Shown piece by piece: positions 16,741 through 32,221 of a stretch of 64,000 nt of DNA. Source of the stretch: Pseudomonas neuropathica. GTDB lineage: Bacteria; Pseudomonadota; Gammaproteobacteria; Pseudomonadales; Pseudomonadaceae. The stretch spans positions 310,001 through 374,000 of the forward strand of contig NZ_JACOPX010000004.1 of the NCBI RefSeq assembly GCF_015461835.1. The letters run 5' to 3'. Under the pieces are notes generated by a model. The model had not been told where the DNA came from and searched no databases. It saw only the letters and a program-made list of their open reading frames with translations. The position numbers and the translations under genes were made by a program. The stretch's first letter is position 1. Every line of letters starts with the position of its first letter.

Positions 16741-16882
16741 TATCGAGCAGCGCCTCGGTGGCCTCAAGGTCGATTTTGCCGTTCTCGGTAAGGACCAGCC
16801 GATCCTGACTGGCCAATTTTGAAACATAGGATTTGGCCCAACCGCGCCGGGCCGCAAACTCCGTTTTGCTGATGATTGTCAT
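16735..16882 (-). pseudogene. Terminase small subunit (Nu1-like), N-terminal remnant
   Basis: ATG 16882, with GGAG eight bases upstream, starts MTIISKTEFAARRGWAKSYV, the winged-helix DNA-binding start of Nu1-like small terminase subunits. After about 48 codons (EATEALLDK) it joins GpA nuclease sequence. The frame continues as nonsense to 16649. Confidence 0.7.
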
Positions 16883-18044
16883 GCTTAATTCTCCAATCGC
16901 CTGTGCCACCGCCATAAGGCGCCGCACGTAGCTTGACGATCTTCGAGCTGAACGCGCTGTAGCTGATCACCCCGGCCCAACGCTCATCATTGGCCAGGAT
17001 CAACTCGACGTTCTGCATGTGCGCAATCAGCGCGCCGCTTTCGCTACGGGCTAGTAGATCCTTCCAACCACCAGCAGCCGGCGGCTTGACCACCGCCAAC
17101 ACCTGCCGGCGCACCGCCTCCAAACCTTCCGCGACATGCAGATCGTTGAAGTCGGTCCACTTGGCTTCCCGCTCACTGGAAAAGATCGGCGCAACCACCT
17201 GGCCACCGACAATCAGCGCCGCGTTGTTCGCTTTCTCTTCACCGGGGTTCCACGCATCGCCATTCGGCTTCGTGGTCTTCCAGTCGTCGTCTCGGCAGAT
17301 GATCAGCGGGCAACCGGCGAAACGCTCGCGCATGGCCTTGCAAACCACCAGCAAATTGCCCGCATCAAACGCAACGGCCACGGTCAATGACGTGGCCATA
17401 TGCAGACTTGCACCGGTCGCGTAGCCCTCACATACCAGCACCGGCTCGCCCGGATCCGGGTGCGGCCCGATCAGATGGAAAGCGCCCTCCTTCGACATGC
17501 CGTAAGGCCAATAGGACTTGTCCCGACCGGTGTCCTCTTGTTTGGTCGGGAACACCACCTGCAGTCCGACAATCTCGTCACGCACATTGCTCATCGGCAC
17601 CAGAAACGCACCGGTGCGCGGCGCATACCGAACGCCGAAGCCAACAATCTGCTTGCGATCCAGATAGTCGCTACGGCCCTTCTCCGGCATGCGTTTGAAC
17701 ATACCCGCTGCGCGCTTCGCCGCACGACGTGCCCCGTTGGCCGAAATTTCTGCGGCGCGGCGTTTGGCCTCTTCCTGCCGAGCACGCATAACCTCGCGCT
17801 CTTCAGGCGACATCCGCCCGGCCTTGACCTTGATCTTCTGAGACTCACCAGAACGCCAGTCCCCGAACGCACCGAAGATCAGCGTCTCGCCTTTCTCAGT
17901 GCGCTGTTCATGAACGACATACCAGCCGTTCTTTTCCTTGCCCTTGTCTTGCGTCGTCTTGCAGCGGGTCAACTTGCCGAACACCAAAGGCTGCGCAGGC
18001 TCAAGACCGTAATCCGCGAATTGCCCCAGTACGTCATCGAGCAT
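16764..18044 (-). pseudogene. Phage primase-helicase, truncated after Toprim
   Basis: The 426-codon frame begins as a phage replication primase. A Toprim domain (VLVCEGYATGASLHM, then CPLIICRDDD) is present at about residues 215-300. Near residue 345 the start of a VapE-like helicase domain is seen (ELILANDERWAGVISY to GGGTGDW). Homology ends there at about 16890, and about 40 residues of read-through into the terminase remnant follow. The ATPase part is gone. The intact protein would prime and unwind phage DNA. Confidence 0.78.
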
Positions 18045-18264
18045 GGCGTGCCCCTTTTAATTCCGCGAGGGAAAGGCAGTCGACACACTGGGTACAGCCG
18101 GGCTGCGCCAAACGTCGAGCCTCGGGGATAGGACCATCGCAGGTTTCACAGAACAGAAACGAATGCGCCGCCAAAGCGGGCTTGGCGGCGAGGAAACGTG
18201 CAGCGAGTGCCTGATCGATGCGCTCCTGCACCAGGTCATTAGCGAAGTCGACGATATCAACCAC
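18034..18264 (-). CDS. TraR/DksA-type zinc finger protein
   Basis: A 76-residue protein with a four-cysteine zinc finger (FCETCDGPIPEARR, then CTQCVDC) after a short helix, as in phage TraR/DksA-like proteins that act on RNA polymerase. GTG 18264 is chosen as start: it overlaps the cII-like gene by eight bases and begins (M)VDIVDFANDLVQ, the family's usual start. It also overlaps the primase start by 11 bases. Confidence 0.8.
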   Translation of the reverse strand: MVDIVDFANDLVQERIDQALAARFLAAKPALAAHSFLFCETCDGPIPEARRLAQPGCTQCVDCLSLAELKGARHAR

Positions 18265-18775
18265 GATCAGTACCCCGCGTCGTCTGATTGACATAGGTGG
18301 CGCGGTTGAACAACCCCAACAGCCCCTGAATTCCACGAAACACCTGCAGGCGAATCGCAGCCAGTTCCTCATCGGAAACAACCCCGTCACCAATGCTCTT
18401 GGCCCAGGTATCCGCCAGATCCGCGACTTGCCGGAAGTACTCGGCAATCCCGGTGGTCAACGTCTCCGGCATGTCATTGGTGTACGCCTCAGCCAGTTCC
18501 TGCCAAGTCGTATCACCAACCAAGGCATGCACTGCATCCAGAATGCGGCGATCCTTGGTCAGCTCCAGAATCTCGCCGAACTCTTGAATGTTTACCGTGT
18601 GGCTGGGGTGGGTTGGGGAAAGCTTGTGCTGCAGCGTGGTCGCATTTCGGCCGGTGGTGGCGGCGATGGCTGCGGCGCCGCCGGGGTAGTCCCGTGCGGC
18701 ATGGTAAAGCGCGAGATCAAGCGGCAAAACTTCCCGCTGCGCCCGCTCAACAGAACTCAAAGCGATACGGCTCAT
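18257..18775 (-). CDS. Phage regulatory protein CII family
   Basis: A 172-residue protein with the Phage_CII pattern: LDLALYHAARDYPGGAAAIA, then GRNATTLQHKLSP, a helix-turn-helix for DNA binding. In Pseudomonas prophages this gene follows cro in the leftward early operon. It probably activates lysogenic or late promoters. It is intact although replication and packaging genes downstream are broken. Confidence 0.85.
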   Translation of the reverse strand: MSRIALSSVERAQREVLPLDLALYHAARDYPGGAAAIAATTGRNATTLQHKLSPTHPSHTVNIQEFGEILELTKDRRILDAVHALVGDTTWQELAEAYTNDMPETLTTGIAEYFRQVADLADTWAKSIGDGVVSDEELAAIRLQVFRGIQGLLGLFNRATYVNQTTRGTDRG

Positions 18776-18835
18776 GGCATTAATCCTTGTAAGTTGCCAG
18801 TGCCGCGCGACATGCAGTGGTGATACATTTGCCGC

Positions 18836-19102
18836 GTGGCTTGAAAGGGCCCAAACGCCGGCTAGATCTTAGGGATCGATACCGGCACCGTGCCGGGGCG
18901 AGCAATCCGTTGCTCACCCCTGGCGCAACAGCTGCCAAATCTGTGGTGGAAGAGGCAGCAACACCAAGGCTTCCGAGCCTTGGAAAAGCGCGATAAAGGA
19001 AGACGGTTGCATGTGGTGTGCCCGCCTACCTTTATCGCGACCCGACAGCGCTGTGGTGGTGCGTGCCGGGAGGAACTGGGCGACCTTTGGGTCGCCTTTT
19101 TT
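18836..19102 (+). ncRNA. Candidate structured antisense RNA between cII and cro
   Basis: No gene fits this stretch, but it folds strongly. Visible hairpins: 18882-18896; 18895-18920 (10-bp stem with one mismatch, TCCG loop); GCTGCC/GGCAGC at 18931-18936 and 18954-18959; 18964-18983 (perfect 8-bp stem, TCCG loop); a perfect 11-bp pairing of 18989-18999 with 19029-19039; and a terminator at 19079-19102. An extended -10-like TGATACATT lies at 18821-18829. The loop segment 18940-18954 is perfectly complementary to 20867-20881, just before the ribosome binding site of the rightward operon. Position and strand recall lambda OOP. Transcription is unproven. Confidence 0.5.
19079..19102 (+). terminator. 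Terminator after the structured cII-cro region
   Basis: GGCGACC and GGTCGCC arms with a four-base loop, followed by six T on the plus strand. It ends five bases before the cro stop codon and faces the cro gene, so it serves a plus-strand transcript from the cII-cro gap. Confidence 0.75.
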
Positions 19103-19106
19103 CTTA

Positions 19107-19343
19107 CTACGCTGCGGCTTTTCTGATAGTCACTTCTTCCGTAATACCAAAATGTTCGAGTACCTCAGCCAAAGGCACGCTTCCTTCACTTTCCCGGGCT
19201 AAAGCTTTGATCAAAGAAACACTGGGATCCTTACTCGCATATTTGACATGAAGTCGAAGATAGCTTGATGCGATGTTGCATCGATCAGCGTATGCAGCAA
19301 GCCCCTGTGGGTCCAAAGTATTTATGTATTCGCGCAAATTCAT
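19107..19343 (-). CDS. Cro-like DNA-binding protein
   Basis: A 78-residue helix-turn-helix protein (MNLREYINTLDPQGLAAYA...), resembling Cro/YdaS-type regulators of Pseudomonas prophages. ATG 19343 is chosen because the family begins with this residue. It is divergent from the CI-like repressor, with two palindromic operators between them, and is first in the leftward early operon (cro, cII, zinc finger, primase). Confidence 0.82.
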   Translation of the reverse strand: MNLREYINTLDPQGLAAYADRCNIASSYLRLHVKYASKDPSVSLIKALARESEGSVPLAEVLEHFGITEEVTIRKAAA

Positions 19344-19368
19344 GGAAATTGCCCTTCCAGACAAAAAT

Positions 19369-19424
19369 TAACCTATTGGGTTATTTTTTTCAATACCCAC
19401 AAGGAAATTCACCTTAAAGGTTAA
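19369..19424. promoter_or_regulatory. Two palindromic operators in the cro-cI gap
   Basis: TAACC-N5-GGTTA at 19369-19383 and TTCACCTTAAAGGTTAA at 19408-19424. Both are variants of a TTAACCT-N3-AGGTTAA palindrome that recurs at 20809 and 20840. Repressor and Cro binding here would switch the divergent genes. Confidence 0.65.
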
Positions 19425-19442
19425 TCGCGCCAGAATCGCAAT

Positions 19443-20090
19443 ATGAAAATTTCAGACACCCGCCTTCAAAATTTCCGACGCGTCATAGCCGAGAAAAAGC
19501 TTCGCCTGATAGACATAGCGGATCGGCTTGGCAAGGCACCTGCCCAAGTCAGCGCCTTTGGAGGCAAAAACCCTACAAAAGGCATTGGTGACCGAATAGC
19601 TCGTGAGCTGGAAAAAGCTCTCGAGCTACATTCGGGTTACTTGGATATGCCATTTGGCTTAGGGGAGTTCAACAACGCCACCGTATTAAGTCATACAGGA
19701 CGTAAGCTACCCGTGATGGGATCAATTGCAGCTGGCGCATGGTGCGAACCTGACGCGAATTTTGACCCAAGAGATGCTGAAGAGTGGATCGATTCTCCCG
19801 GACCAGTGGGCGCTCGGGCATTCATTCTGAGGGTCGAAGGTGTAAGCATGGAGCCAAAATTCATGGAGGGCGACAAGATTGTTATCGACCCATCACTTGA
19901 AGCATTGCCAGGTCATTTTGTTGCCGCCAAACGAACCAGGGATCAGGCCGCAACGTTGAAGCAACTGAGACAGGAAGGAAGCGAACAATTCCTTTATGCA
20001 TTAAACCCTGACTGGCCTGAGAGAATTATTCGTATGTCAGAGGAATGGACCATTTGTGGCCGCGCGCGGTGGAAAATTTCTGATCTCTGA
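19443..20090 (+). CDS. CI-like prophage repressor with S24 peptidase domain
   Basis: A 215-residue protein. Residues about 1-60 form a helix-turn-helix (RLIDIADRLGKAPAQVSAF). The C-terminal S24 domain has the catalytic serine in EGVSMEPKF and lysine in FVAAKRTRD, with an Ala-Gly cleavage site in SIAAGAWCEP. RecA-stimulated self-cleavage would lift repression after DNA damage. It is divergent from cro. All visible catalytic residues are kept, so repression may still work in this defective prophage. Confidence 0.93.
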   Translation: MKISDTRLQNFRRVIAEKKLRLIDIADRLGKAPAQVSAFGGKNPTKGIGDRIARELEKALELHSGYLDMPFGLGEFNNATVLSHTGRKLPVMGSIAAGAWCEPDANFDPRDAEEWIDSPGPVGARAFILRVEGVSMEPKFMEGDKIVIDPSLEALPGHFVAAKRTRDQAATLKQLRQEGSEQFLYALNPDWPERIIRMSEEWTICGRARWKISDL

Positions 20091-20145
20091 AGCCTGATAT
20101 TCCAGCTACTGACCACTGATCCTGTACCCACCTTGAGCCACTTGA

Positions 20146-20745
20146 ATGTCCCAAGACGACCTGCAGCACCAACAAGCAAAGGCAGTCGAGTTTTACGCTG
20201 CCGCGTTGAACGGTTGGCAAACCACAAGATTTGAACTCGATAAAAGCTTACTGACCTTGAGCGCCGCTGGAATCGGTCTAGTCATTACGTTGATCTCCAC
20301 TGTAGGCGTGCGTTCTATTGAGAGCTTAATTCTCAGCCTGCTGACGATGATTTGCTTCGTCATCACTTTGGTCACAGTCCTCACGATTTTTGATCGAAAT
20401 GCAAAATATCTTATTTCATGCATCTCAGACGCTGGCCCAATCAGCGACCCCATACTTGCTACGCTAGATCGCATTGCAGTAGTGTCATTTATGGGGGGCG
20501 TAATCCTAGCTTCCGTCATTGGCATCTCAACAGCGGCAAATGCGTATATAGATAAGGCGGCAAAAATGACAGAAAACTCGAAAACGAATTCCTTGACTCT
20601 CTCGCAGGAGTCAATGGACATGTTCGCGCAATTTAAACCCGTGGTGGCCCAAGCCAAAACCACACCAGCAACGCAAGAAACTCCGTCAGCGAATACTACC
20701 CAACAAACGCAGGCTGGCTCGACACAACAAACGTCGAATAAATGA
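20146..20745 (+). CDS. Membrane protein downstream of CI, possible moron
   Basis: A 199-residue protein. Three hydrophobic segments (about residues 35-55, 58-82 and 108-130) suggest an inner-membrane protein, followed by a long Thr/Gln/Ser-rich tail (ATQETPSANTTQQTQ). It lies 55 bp after the repressor gene on the same strand and has its own terminator, so it should be expressed in the lysogen. That placement is typical of lysogenic-conversion genes such as superinfection exclusion. No family is recognised. Confidence 0.65.
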   Translation: MSQDDLQHQQAKAVEFYAAALNGWQTTRFELDKSLLTLSAAGIGLVITLISTVGVRSIESLILSLLTMICFVITLVTVLTIFDRNAKYLISCISDAGPISDPILATLDRIAVVSFMGGVILASVIGISTAANAYIDKAAKMTENSKTNSLTLSQESMDMFAQFKPVVAQAKTTPATQETPSANTTQQTQAGSTQQTSNK

Positions 20746-20762
20746 CCCGGCAGGCAAGACAT

Positions 20763-20790
20763 AAAACCGCTATGTCCTAGCGGTTTTTTT
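20763..20790 (+). terminator. Rho-independent terminator after the membrane protein gene
   Basis: AACCGCTA and TAGCGGTT arms around a TGTCC loop, followed by seven T on the plus strand. It separates the repressor/membrane-protein unit from the rightward operon. Confidence 0.88.
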
Positions 20791-20808
20791 GTGCCTCAAG
20801 AAAAAAAC

Positions 20809-20856
20809 ACCTTAAAGGTACATCGCAAAACTTGATTTATTAACCTTTAAGGTTAA
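20809..20856. promoter_or_regulatory. Second pair of CI/Cro-type operators, rightward operon
   Basis: ACCTTAAAGGT at 20809-20819 and the perfect palindrome TTAACCTTTAAGGTTAA at 20840-20856. They match the operators between cro and cI, 1.4 kb away. They lie 40-85 bp before the first gene of the rightward operon, so the same repressor probably controls it. Confidence 0.65.
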
Positions 20857-20894
20857 TATCGCCTAACTCTTCCACCACAGAGCGAGGCAACACC

Positions 20895-21071
20895 ATGCAC
20901 ACCACAGCAACCCTGCACGTCCACCCGGCCACGGCTAACCCCTTCCAAATCTTTGAGATTCGCCGCCTAGCCCGCGAGTCCGGCTGCGCGTTTGTCGCCA
21001 CCAAATCGAAGCTGAAGGCACGCGCCACTCCTACCCCATTCAATCCGAAAGGCGGAGGGCACGCGGCATGA
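20895..21071 (+). CDS. Small phage protein, first gene of rightward operon
   Basis: A 58-residue frame, MHTTATLHVHPATANPFQIF onward, basic in its second half (RRLARESGCAFVATKSKLKA). ATG 20895 follows GAGGCAACACC. Its end overlaps the next gene by ATGA. No function is recognised. Its leader at 20867-20881 is perfectly complementary to the candidate RNA between cII and cro. Confidence 0.6.
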   Translation: MHTTATLHVHPATANPFQIFEIRRLARESGCAFVATKSKLKARATPTPFNPKGGGHAA

Positions 21072-21953: not shown

Positions 21954-22119
21954 GGAATACGCCCGCCAGATCATCGCCATGCGGACACGAGAGGAGCGCA
22001 ACGCCGCGCTCCTCGAAGTGCCCGAACATCTGCGCGAGCTGACCAGAACGCATTGCCTGAACGCCTGGAACCACCCGGCCAGAAAACAACGCAAGGAGGC
22101 CCAACAAAGCCATGAGTAA
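21940..22119 (+). CDS. Small phage protein, GTG start
   Basis: A 59-residue, basic, helical frame (VTWPREYARQIIAMRTREER...) overlapping the preceding gene by 14 bases and the next by eight. The ARQIIAMRTREERNAALLEVPEH pattern resembles short conserved proteins in Pseudomonas prophages. Function is unknown. Confidence 0.6.
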   Translation: MTWPREYARQIIAMRTREERNAALLEVPEHLRELTRTHCLNAWNHPARKQRKEAQQSHE

Positions 22120-22429
22120 CACAGCACAAAACCCGCTACGCCTGCACCCGGCGCCGGAATCAGCCACCGTCGAATTGCTTTACCGCATCTTCGGCGACGT
22201 CCTGATCCCGCTCGACAAAGTGCGCGAGCAGTATTTCCGCAACCTCAACGAGCAATCGTTCGTGGCCGAGATCAGCAGCGGCCGAATCCAGCTCCCCATC
22301 ACAACGCTGGACACCAGCCGCAAGGCACCGAAGTACGCACACATCCGCCACGTCGCTTCCCTAATCGACATCCGCGCCTACAAGGCCGACGAAGACATGC
22401 AGCGACAGCAGGACGACACCAACGAGTAA
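22112..22429 (+). CDS. prtN: Pyocin activator PrtN-family protein
   Basis: A 105-residue protein with the PrtN pattern: ELLYRIFGDVLIPLDKVRE, then QYFRNLNEQSF, GRIQLPITTLDTSRKA and HIRHVASLIDIRAYKADED. PrtN activates pyocin and late tail genes in P. aeruginosa by binding P-boxes. Here it lies in the CI-controlled rightward operon of a prophage that keeps sheath, tube, hub and lysis genes. It may still drive expression of those genes after SOS induction, although no particle can be completed. I did not find a convincing P-box. Confidence 0.82.
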   Translation: MSNTAQNPLRLHPAPESATVELLYRIFGDVLIPLDKVREQYFRNLNEQSFVAEISSGRIQLPITTLDTSRKAPKYAHIRHVASLIDIRAYKADEDMQRQQDDTNE

Positions 22430-22486
22430 CACCCAAAACCGAATGGCTGCCACCACCAGCCGAAGACTTCCCCAGGAGCACACCAC

Positions 22487-22954
22487 ATGACCACAGTTCA
22501 AATTTACGCCCTGATAGTAATCGCCATCATGATCGTCGGCGTTTATTGGCTCGCCTACCGGCACGGCTTCAGCAGCGGCCGAGCCGAGGGACATTCAGAG
22601 GGCTACAGCGAGGGCTATGACGTTGGCGGCTGTGTTGGGTTTCGGGACGGTCAAGCGAGCCAGAGCGCTGATAGCGCGGAAGAAATCCGCAACCTGCAGC
22701 ACACCCTTGATCAGGCGCACGACCAACGCAAGAAACTCTACACCCACTACGAGCGCGCCTTGGCTGCCTCAAAACTTGGCGAACAGGAACGACTGACCCT
22801 ACTGGAAATCGCCGAGAAACTCCGGATCGCATCTGAAACATTCAGCGCCTTTCGCACCGGCAAAAAGCTGGAACGCGATACCGGCGTCCTCCGTGACCAG
22901 GCGCTAGCCATGGCTGCTCTGCTGAAACCGGCCGAGCAGGAAAACGCCGCATGA
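22487..22954 (+). CDS. Small membrane-anchored coiled-coil phage protein
   Basis: A 155-residue protein with one N-terminal membrane segment (IYALIVIAIMIVGVYWLAY), a Gly/Glu-rich linker with repeated EGxSEG steps (about residues 30-50) and a long coiled coil. ATG 22487 follows AGGAGCACACCAC. Similar proteins occur in the early operons of Pseudomonas prophages. Function is unknown. Confidence 0.65.
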   Translation: MTTVQIYALIVIAIMIVGVYWLAYRHGFSSGRAEGHSEGYSEGYDVGGCVGFRDGQASQSADSAEEIRNLQHTLDQAHDQRKKLYTHYERALAASKLGEQERLTLLEIAEKLRIASETFSAFRTGKKLERDTGVLRDQALAMAALLKPAEQENAA

Positions 22955-23310: not shown

Positions 23311-23594
23311 GCGAAGTATCAATTGTTTTCTACGCTCCTCCACCAGCTCTACTGGATGCGTTACGTGACAAAGAATGCTTCGTCACCTCCTCTTACGGGA
23401 ATTCAATTGAACAACGCGATGCCGCTCATAGGCGAGAGCTGATCCTTAAAGAAGAACTCGAATTCCTCACAACACGTCACGAAAAAGTACTTGCCCGCGA
23501 GGAGGCGTTAGAAAAGGCAATCTGCATTATGAGGGAGCGTAATCGTTGTCTCGGGCTCAGCCGCAGCAAATCAAACGGGGAGGACGAAATATGA
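23307..23594 (+). CDS. Phage hypothetical protein with coiled coil
   Basis: A 95-residue protein beginning MSEVSIVFYAPPPALLDALR. The C-terminal two thirds form a charged helix likely to be a coiled coil. It overlaps the genes before and after by four bases each (ATGA), continuing the coupled rightward operon. No function is recognised. Confidence 0.6.
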   Translation: MSEVSIVFYAPPPALLDALRDKECFVTSSYGNSIEQRDAAHRRELILKEELEFLTTRHEKVLAREEALEKAICIMRERNRCLGLSRSKSNGEDEI

Positions 23595-23788
23595 GCCTAC
23601 CGCGCTGGGTGATGATTAATCGTGCCTCTGAATTGACTGGCTATAGCGAAGACGCGATTCGCCACAAAGTGAAGAACGGTACCTGGGCACAAGGGCGAGT
23701 TTGGCGCAAAACACCAGACGGCCGAATCGCAATCAACATGACGGAGTATGACAAGTGGGCCGAGAGCGCACCTCAGCAAGCGGCCTAG
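23591..23788 (+). CDS. Excisionase-like winged-helix protein
   Basis: A 65-residue protein (MSLPRWVMINRASELTGYSE, then DAIRHKVKNGTWAQGRVWRK) with the helix-turn-helix and wing of small Xis proteins. It directs the integrase toward excision. It overlaps the integrase start by 34 bases and the preceding gene by four. ATG 23591 has GGGGAGG just upstream. Position directly before int strengthens the call. Confidence 0.85.
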   Translation: MSLPRWVMINRASELTGYSEDAIRHKVKNGTWAQGRVWRKTPDGRIAINMTEYDKWAESAPQQAA

Positions 23789-24987
23789 AAGCGGAGCTGG
23801 CTAAACACAAAGGAATTGAAATACACGGCGGAAGCATTCGCGTCGTGTTCATGTGGCGGCGAATTCGTTGCCGCGAGACCCTTGGCTTACCTGTAACTAA
23901 ATCCAACATCAAGCACGCCGCCCTACTCAGGGCGGCAATTCTTCACGAGATCAAGACGGGACATTTTGAATACGGTCGCCACTTCCCAAACTCAAAGAAC
24001 GCGACCAATTACACCGTGGTAAAAGACGAGCGGATCGGGGCGCTGATGGAACGTTACAAACCGCTGAAGGCAGTCGACATAACCCCGATGACCGAAGAAA
24101 AATACGGCTATGCATTGGACATCTGCGCCGAACTGCTCGGCTCCGACCGATTGGCGGGCATCCTGTTACCCGAAGATATCCAGCGACTGCGGACTCAACT
24201 GATCGCCACCAGGGCGCCGTCGACGGCTAACCATTACTTGGCTACTTTCGCAGGCTTCTTAGCGTGGTGTGAAGACAACAGATATTGTCGTGAGGGGTTG
24301 GCGGCGGCTTGCGTCCGTTTTGCAATGATCGGACGTGAACCAGATCCACTGACGAAAGCAGAGTTCGACCAGTTGATAAATAAAGGCTGTTTACACATTC
24401 AGGATTCAGCTGCGATCACACTCGCCGTTTACACCGGTCTTCGGCCCGGGGAATTATGCGGGCTGGCAGTGGAGGATATAGACCTGGTCTCCGGGCAGCT
24501 ACACATAACCCGTGCGATCACTGCAGACGGCACATTCAAAGTCCCCAAAACTGGCAAGCCTCGCACCGTGTTTTTGATGCCACCAGCCCTCGACGCGTGT
24601 AAAACCCTTATCGGTCTCGTTGCGAAGCATGAACCTAGGACAATCGAAATCTATATGAATCGGTATGAGAGCCGGATGGAAACGGTCACTTCCCTATTAT
24701 CACCATCATCACAAGCCCGAAAGAAAATCATCAATCATTGGTTTGTTCCTACATCCTGGAACACCAAATGGGCAGCCATTCAAAAACGTGCCGGTACCCG
24801 ACCACGCCGGCCTTACCAGACACGACATACCTATGCATGTTGGTGCCTCACGGCTCGCGGAAACCTTGCATTCATCGCAAAGCAAATGGGGCACAAAGAC
24901 TTCACTATGCTAGTCGATGTTTACGCTCGATGGATGGATGATGAGTCACCGGATGAGCTGTCCCGCATTTGGAACAACCTACGATGA
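23755..24987 (+). CDS. int: Tyrosine integrase, mutS-specific
   Basis: A 410-residue tyrosine recombinase. The N-terminus resembles the arm-binding domain of Arm-DUF3596 integrases (GIEIHGGSIRVVFMWR). Catalytic residues: Arg in VYTGLRPGEL (about 229), the RPYQTRHTYA block (about 357-366), His in QMGHKDF and the nucleophile Tyr in LVDVYARW (about 391). It presumably recombines the 44-bp core in mutS codons 1-13. The start used is GTG 23755, inside xis. A decayed close homologue lies at 26513-27190. Confidence 0.93.
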   Translation: MGRERTSASGLEAELAKHKGIEIHGGSIRVVFMWRRIRCRETLGLPVTKSNIKHAALLRAAILHEIKTGHFEYGRHFPNSKNATNYTVVKDERIGALMERYKPLKAVDITPMTEEKYGYALDICAELLGSDRLAGILLPEDIQRLRTQLIATRAPSTANHYLATFAGFLAWCEDNRYCREGLAAACVRFAMIGREPDPLTKAEFDQLINKGCLHIQDSAAITLAVYTGLRPGELCGLAVEDIDLVSGQLHITRAITADGTFKVPKTGKPRTVFLMPPALDACKTLIGLVAKHEPRTIEIYMNRYESRMETVTSLLSPSSQARKKIINHWFVPTSWNTKWAAIQKRAGTRPRRPYQTRHTYACWCLTARGNLAFIAKQMGHKDFTMLVDVYARWMDDESPDELSRIWNNLR

Positions 24988-31907: not shown

Positions 31908-31922
31908 ACTTTTCTGCAGGCG

Positions 31923-32049
31923 AAAAAAGGGGCGGTATGACCCGCCCACATTTTTCCCTATTCCCTGTATTCCTTTTCATCGTCCTGATGAATCGCGTCC
32001 TGCGATGTCCGTTCCCCTCTTCCTTGAAGGGCGTGTCTGTCCGTCGACA
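31923..32049 (-). ncRNA. rsmZ: RsmZ regulatory RNA
   Basis: The minus strand starts TGTCGACGGACAGACACGCC and ends with a GGGCGG...CCGCCC hairpin and a T-run, 127 nt in all. It contains many GGA motifs (ACGGACA twice, AAGGAAG, CAGGAC, CAGGACG, AAGGAAT), most in predicted hairpin loops, which titrate RsmA/CsrA. In pseudomonads rsmZ lies between fdxA and rpoS, exactly as here. It links the Gac two-component system to secondary metabolism, biofilm and virulence traits. Confidence 0.93.
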
Positions 32050-32221
32050 CAGCCCCGATACTAGAGAGTTCCCTGACAAGAGCAATCGGCTGTGGGTGCC
32101 GAAAAAAATTGTCATAAGCACTTAATGTTAAAAAATAAACATATAAAACAATAAGTTAGATTGAGACGATGGCCGCAATCGACGTCTGCCGTCTTGTAAA
32201 AATAGGGAACACTTACGAGAG

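Follow-up and report, generated by a model that had tools for sequence, protein, structure and literature searches.

The window, by which we mean the whole stretch of 64,000 nucleotides analysed here from Pseudomonas neuropathica, carries a prophage in which a leftward cII and cro-like gene face a rightward cI and a longer rightward operon:

18257-18775, minus strand: cII (PF06892, E 5.8e-21)
19107-19364, minus strand: cro-like repressor gene (phrog_35, E 1.5e-4)
19443-20090, plus strand: CI-like repressor gene (Peptidase_S24)
20895-21071, plus strand: gene A, 58 aa, head of the first gene block (phrog_35204)
22112-22429, plus strand: PrtN-like gene (PF11112; excisionase in PHROG)
22487-22954, plus strand: gene B, 155 aa, first gene of the block that runs to xis and int (phrog_28176)
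23546-24987, plus strand: xis and int, end of the rightward operon

The rightward operon spans 20895 to the end of int at 24987. Besides genes A and B it contains a KilAC-domain gene, together with the PrtN-like gene, xis and int named in the original prediction. Gene A shares a stop-start overlap with the gene at 21068 (ATGA at 21068), and a chain of overlapping genes runs from gene B through 22951 and 23307 to xis (23591). Both genes A and B belong to PHROG families of unknown function. By eye, the gene B product has an N-terminal membrane helix and a coiled coil; its matches to FliH are weak, far below cut-offs, and its spanin match is weak as well.

Between cI and gene A, the window holds a 199-aa gene (20146-20745) without Pfam or PHROG match. 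The distance from the RNA described below to gene A varies from about 1.05 to 4.8 kb among the loci shown, so the stretch 20100-20800 looks like a cargo site. On the other side of cII, a primase ORF (16764-18044, minus strand) aligns to the first half of its PHROG profile only (3-423 of 802), and ORFs in another frame, tail-like by eye, follow closely; the prophage may be defective near this point.

A folded element in the cII-cro gap

The gap between cII and cro is occupied by a folded plus-strand stretch, a chain of hairpins closed by a terminator:

18836-19102, plus strand: predicted small RNA of 267 nt (from fold, covariation and conservation; 5' end predicted from the -10 box)
18931-18959, plus strand: hairpin with seed loop 1, UCUGUGGUGGAAGAG (loop 18940-18954); two-sided changes at 5 of 6 pairs, 99.7% of cells paired
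18964-18983, plus strand: TCCG-loop hairpin; two-sided changes at 6 of 7 pairs
18990-19038, plus strand: hairpin with seed loop 2, CAUGUGGUGUGC (loop 19010-19021); two-sided changes at 9 of 10 pairs
19041-19070, plus strand: hairpin with a third, UGUGGUG loop (19052-19058); 98.1% of cells paired, loop conserved
19078-19102, plus strand: intrinsic terminator ending the RNA; its five T do not vary across the 113 aligned sequences

The whole RNA folds at -129.6 kcal/mol, with z = -5.1 against dinucleotide shuffles, and its stems covary; a folded plus-strand stretch with a terminator thus lies where it had been predicted. Two finer details of that prediction hold as well: seed loop 1, TCTGTGGTGGAAGAG (18940-18954), is enclosed by a GCTGCC/GGCAGC stem, and a TCCG loop is present in two hairpins. 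Folded alone, the seed-2 hairpin (18985-19042) and the terminator (19074-19102) each reach z -4.2; the seed-1 hairpin (z -1.2) and the third seed hairpin (z -0.8) do not rise above shuffles. A simple terminator scan lists the RNA terminator as its sole entry in 18600-20960, which we do not count as support because shuffles average 3.6. A coding function of 18836-19102 was ruled out, its length varying between relatives by steps that are not multiples of three.

At E <= 5.5e-8 the RNA occurs in 57 of 398 Pseudomonas genomes; the tally at E <= 0.001, 98 of 398, includes many short matches, mostly of the terminator. With a loose pattern, 58 stretches match among named Pseudomonas genomes, and at least 120 among viral contigs. 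We pooled 239 loci from the window, 60 fetched stretches and the loose-pattern stretches of genomes and viral contigs. As the two genome collections overlap and some contigs appear twice, locus counts are not counts of independent phages. Leaving out L085, which is without the terminator pattern, and five loci that end before the -10 box gave 233 loci with 193 distinct sequences, of which 113 representatives were aligned. In five loci (L080, L083, L086, L087 and L090) a fourth hairpin with a CTGTGGT loop stands in place of the RNA's first stem.

On this alignment RNAalifold proposes 50 pairs, 22 of them with two-sided compensatory change. For the 45 pairs named from the window, a structure that omits one A-C mismatch position (19045/19066), 95.3% of cells in the 113 sequences hold standard pairs. 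Two-sided changes occur in 26 of these 45 pairs, against 13.0 +- 2.0 in shuffles, none of 500 of which reaches 26; slid versions of the structure give 9-15 such pairs and 33-47% of cells paired.

A search of the phage collection by blastn returned no close copy of the RNA. The Rfam scan of the window at gathering scores lists the host's own RsmZ/PrrB small RNA gene (31922-32051, minus strand; RF00166, E 3.9e-29) and nothing at the RNA. More permissive scans gave no C4 RNA, either on 18700-19200 (E <= 1; weak matches far below gathering scores) or on six relatives (E <= 0.1). In the literature searched, where subscription journals are sparsely covered, no title or abstract start describes such an RNA. 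A P. putida small RNA sits between PP_5401 and PP_5402 (PMC7324555).

Loop sequences and the gene starts of the rightward operon

The loops of the RNA are complementary to sites at the heads of both blocks of the rightward operon:

20867-20881, plus strand: target 1, gene A leader, complement of loop 1 (15/15)
20897-20906, plus strand: target 2, gene A codons 1-4, complement of loop 2 (10/10)
22444-22462, plus strand: hairpin in the mRNA ahead of gene B, its loop CCACCAC; present in 112 of the 139 loci that have gene B
22478-22489, plus strand: target 3, from just past the Shine-Dalgarno sequence through the gene B start codon, complement of loop 2 (12/12)

Loop 1 is the exact reverse complement of 20867-20881, as predicted, and the match is unique: in the 6.48-Mb genome the 15-mer occurs at exactly two places, the RNA and this leader, with one 1-mismatch copy on another contig. 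Loop 2, CATGTGGTGTGC (19010-19021), fits 22478-22489 in 12 of 12 positions, and its 12-mer is likewise found at just two places, the RNA and the gene B start; the host genome holds no further exact copy of the 12- or 15-nt targets. Calculated duplex energies are -28.4 kcal/mol for loop 1 with the gene A leader, -23.1 kcal/mol for loop 2 with the gene B start and -22.5 kcal/mol for loop 2 with the gene A start.

The two seeds emerged from a longest-complement search of each of 60 fetched loci. Gene starts were scanned 0.3-6.9 kb downstream in 60 loci (the window and L031-L090, without L085); matches fell on gene A in 56 of them and on gene B in 43. Further B-like proteins were matched in groups of 4 loci and 1 locus and in L086 and L087. 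The KilAC-domain gene, which lies in the operon carrying the sites 20867-20881, 20897-20906 and 22478-22489, was matched over 10 nt in 4 loci, and the remaining groups comprise 1-2 loci each.

Loop and target change together. Loop 2 fits the gene B start over 12 of 12 positions in 109 of 131 loci, in three matched states: GCACACCACATG in 97 loci, GCAAACCAAATG in 9 and GCAAACCACATG in 3. L215 also has GCACACCACATG but escaped the search pattern. In ten further loci the fit consists of 11 Watson-Crick pairs and one G-U. The nine loci with GCAAACCAAATG were first known as targets without a recognised loop; the loop they predicted, CATTTGGTTTGC, was then present in the RNA of all nine. One mismatch separates loop 2 from the gene B start in L031 and L079, and there is no fit in L084, L088, L090, L108, L110, L228, L239, L240 and L265. 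In L082 both loop 2 and gene B are missing; we set this co-absence aside, as several loci that have loop 2 also lack a gene B by tblastn (L066 and L069, for example).

The gene A start tracks loop 2 in most loci, reading CACACC in 141 of 152 loci with GGTGTGC and CAAACC in 10 of 11 loci with GGTTTGC. Over 66 distinct loci, the complement to the locus's own RNA averages 11.97 nt at gene A, against 11.56 +- 0.10 after permutation, and 11.36 against 10.86 +- 0.09 nt at gene B; none of 2000 permutations reaches the observed values, in a test that does not remove relatedness. A complement of at least 11 nt to gene starts of the operon occurs in 58 of 65 distinct loci of the window type (7 fall below 11 nt), against 1 of 65 on the opposite strand and 33 of 650 shuffles, statistics which alone do not tell antisense from a repeated motif. 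The original prediction had turned on whether pairing is lost where both sequences change: it is kept in most loci, with exceptions. As far as sequences can tell, complementarity is maintained by paired changes, as it should be for a trans-acting antisense small RNA.

Within the family, 28 of 298 genomes, from 6 of 19 genera, have a relative of gene A. In fetched regions of further family genomes, genus included, gene A was located in 17 of 20; upstream of these 17 relatives there is a complement of at least 12 nt in 10, of 10 nt (near chance) in 3, and none of 10 nt in 4 (L406, L410, L418, L424). L406, on contig C9 of the same host genome, is a second gene A relative with the leader CTCTTTACCACAGAGC; its fetched stretch contains no RNA matching that leader.

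On the mRNA side, the hairpin upstream of gene B has 18 stem variants, many of them compensatory (for instance GGCTG/CAGCC, GGACTG/CAGTCC, GGCCG/CGGCC and GGCGG/CCGCC). In the window, 22432-22500 folded alone does no better than shuffles (z 0.0). The CCACCAC loop complements the GUGGUGG of RNA loops 1 and 3, and the gene B start itself is unstructured (z 0.9), as expected for a linear antisense target. A CCACCAC loop or leader lies ahead of both gene A and gene B, and both carry a GCACACCAC site at their start codons; the RNA would therefore hold each ribosome site by two contacts.

A second lineage of phages

Three P. aeruginosa phages, U5, Haddon and LPPA36, were reached through the surrounding genes. 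Their RNA has diverged and fits the leader of the operon's first gene in 15 of 15 positions; by eye, no obvious intrinsic terminator is seen in phages of the U5 type. In Haddon, a hypothetical protein is annotated opposite the RNA region (L270:4375-4515, minus strand), and is likely not a gene.

In phage Turba the gap sequence is unrelated to the window RNA. There, GCATGTGCTGTGTC complements the start codon region of CDS 7517 at 14 of 14 positions, and an 11-nt part of it fits the CDS 7310 start codon as well. Further relatives, collected by CII, have two seeds, CCTCTCACCAAAGA for the leader of the first operon gene and CAGCACATG for start codons; in 15 loci of both types examined, the start-codon seed of Turba-type phages matches between one and four genes in each locus, including a DUF2303 gene and genes whose products look like membrane or coiled-coil proteins. 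The leader-seed hairpin is repeated two or three times in tandem in L327, L330 and L339.

The first operon gene of L315 has a PHROG in common with gene A, phrog_13491. The membrane gene of L335, a Turba-type phage, is a homologue of gene B (phrog_28176), and its start, ACACAGCACATG, matches the loop of its own phage, CATGTGCTGTGT. Homologous genes therefore carry different targets, each fitting the RNA of its own phage. Gene starts are complementary over at least 11 nt in 46 of 47 distinct loci of the Turba/U5 types, against 3 of 47 on the opposite strand and 31 of 470 shuffles; the exception, L316, has 9 nt, and L321 was too short to be counted. Cross-pairing between the two RNA types, taken over 66 loci of the window type and 10 hand-picked Turba-type loci, averages 6.7-8.0 nt only.

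Predicted promoter, proposed mode of action and alternatives

Two conserved elements precede the RNA:

18775-18799, no strand assigned: inverted repeat TGGCA-N15-TGCCA over the cII start, candidate CII activator site or RNA hairpin
18821-18829, plus strand: extended -10 box TGATACATT (pattern TGNTANANT)

The 233 loci with enough upstream sequence have the box, a count without L085 and the five loci ending before it. From its start to the end of the terminator there are 282 nt in the window and 228-291 nt in relatives. The conserved box and terminator suggest that the RNA is a separate transcription unit. A sigma-70 scan does not list this promoter because it has no good -35; we picked it by eye, as we did that of gene A.

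A repeat TGGCN-N14/15-TGCCA occurs in 230 of 231 loci of the window type with enough sequence (spacer 15 in 208, 14 in 22), and in 230 of 231 its centre lies 35.5-36.5 nt from the -10 hexamer. A different inverted repeat is found in 78 of 118 Turba/U5-type loci, with a TAYYCTA box at 35.5 nt from it in 77 of the 78; 38 further loci of these types have the TGGCA repeat. The nearly fixed distance between repeat and -10 box, together with the terminator, suggests that the RNA is transcribed from a CII-driven promoter. Alternatively, the repeat may form a hairpin in RNA that surrounds the ribosome site of cII.

The CII of phage 186 is a member of PF06892 too. At the pE promoter of that phage, CII acts through half-sites, and CI and integrase are expressed from pE (PMC8538670). 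Here, too, a PF06892 CII is encoded nearby and a two-half-site element precedes a promoter reading towards cI; unlike at pE, transcription would end at the conserved terminator, short of cro and cI.

From the matches and their joint changes, we consider it probable that the RNA of 18836-19102 pairs with the ribosome-binding regions of the genes at 20895 and 22487 and blocks their translation. In this reading the region gives rise to a prophage small RNA of 267 nt. Its hairpin loops would pair with the ribosome regions of genes A and B on the rightward mRNA: one loop would cover the gene B start codon, and another a stretch of mRNA shortly before the gene A ribosome site. The block would spread to downstream genes through overlapping stop and start codons; with gene A overlapping 21068 and gene B chained to xis, a block at the two heads could silence both parts of the operon. 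Since the loops match gene starts and change with them, an antisense brake on the operon, excision genes included, is likely. In the original reading of a small RNA repressing this operon, the plus-strand RNA, its terminator and the coevolving complementarity to a ribosome site stand; it lacked seed 2, the target mRNA hairpin and the promoter.

When the RNA is made is a question on which we are more tentative. CII, made early, would switch it on from a pE-like promoter while lysogeny is being established; any xis, int and antirepressor-like mRNA that is left over or leaks through would be silenced by the RNA, whose terminator would stop most transcripts from the CII promoter before they reach cro and cI. 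The full proposal, to which we give slightly less than an even chance, is a CII-switched RNA with a rewritable loop code that clamps the heads of the excision and antirepressor blocks at two points each; rewritten codes would be mutually blind, so that co-resident prophages would keep separate post-transcriptional immunity.

A variant with the same RNA and targets, rather unlikely in our judgement, has the lysogen produce it all the time, independently of CII, as a second lock under CI. An extended -10 can function without a -35 hexamer, which is compatible with this variant; the two unrelated repeats at about equal distances from the -10 box speak against it, with 35.5-36.5 nt in 230 of 231 loci of the window type and 35.5 nt in 77 of 78 loci that have the Turba-type repeat.

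A different kind of reading makes the other strand the functional one. Hairpins with CCACCACA loops in the cro-cII and rightward mRNAs would then bind one RNA-binding protein, after the models of the lambda nut and HK022 put sites, and the apparent complementarity would arise as one copy of the repeat is read on the opposite strand. In its favour, nutR occupies the corresponding place between cro and cII. The changes in the stems do not clearly favour the plus strand: overall there are 274 G-U against 196 A-C pairs, with the plus strand favoured in the third seed hairpin (inner stem 90:5) and the terminator (72:2) and several other helices leaning towards the minus strand, a mixed result that we do not use as support. 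Nor do the counts of complements of at least 11 nt separate a repeat from antisense. Against a protein-bound repeat stand the bracketing of the element by a plus-strand terminator, with its invariant T run, and a plus-strand -10 box; the matches that cross the start codons of gene B and of one to four genes in each Turba-type phage; the unstructured gene B site; and the fact that loops 1 and 2 match different targets beyond their shared core. We regard the protein-bound repeat as improbable, and leave it that weight because the strand test is mixed and sequence cannot fully separate repeat from antisense.

It is equally improbable that the RNA activates gene A by opening a leader hairpin whose stem holds the ribosome site. 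With an mRNA start at 20860 this hairpin has a folding energy of -12.4 kcal/mol (z -3.2), and its arms vary together, as in GTTTC/GAAAC in L038. The gene A promoter chosen by eye, TTGATT-16-TAATAT (20832-20859), is not listed by the sigma-70 scan; it places the start near 20866, from which the hairpin does not fold, and activation leaves the pairing over the gene B start codon unexplained. A mainly cis-antisense, OOP-like action that lowers CII is very improbable: by position the RNA is fully complementary to the cro-cII intergenic mRNA, but it overlaps neither coding sequence, and what is conserved and coevolves in it are loops that fit a different operon.

The parallel with lambda OOP had been drawn in the original prediction, and holds in that both are terminated small RNAs near cII, opposite to an early message. 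Otherwise it is loose: OOP overlaps the 3' end of cII (PMC7067206), unlike 18836-19102, which lies outside cII (18257-18775), upstream of it and between cro and cII, with conserved seeds that fit a different operon.

Also near to the proposed antisense brake are two phage RNAs acting on ant. In C4, two pairing sites flank the ribosome site, and the RNA is cut from the same transcript as its target. C4 of P1/P7 pairs around the ribosome-binding site of ant mRNA, and P22 sar, also a small phage RNA, pairs with ant mRNA and hinders translation initiation (PMC12197685 for both). Judged by complementarity around ribosome sites, the RNA described here would resemble C4; unlike C4, it gave no C4 match in the Rfam scans, has a predicted promoter and terminator of its own 1.8 kb upstream of the first target, and has several gene starts as targets. 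Sar, of 68/69 nt, has one target gene, whereas this RNA has multiple hairpins and three conserved sites in two genes.

Multi-loop riboregulators such as GcvB, LhrC and S. aureus RNAIII are host-encoded. The prophage RNA shares with them G/U-rich or repeated loops and a predicted two-point loop contact with the ribosome site; it differs in that its known targets lie in its own prophage operon and that its loop code differs between phage lineages.

Altogether, on strong comparative evidence, the RNA would add a variant to the known phage antisense RNAs, and it has no Rfam match. Lysis-lysogeny control in a large group of Pseudomonas prophages would thus have a conserved RNA layer without a counterpart in Rfam. 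With so many natural pairs of altered loop and altered target, RNA-RNA specificity, two-point pairing and the connection of CII with excision can be tested directly. If CII drives the RNA, the 186-type establishment promoter would gain a second product, one that shuts the opposing operon.
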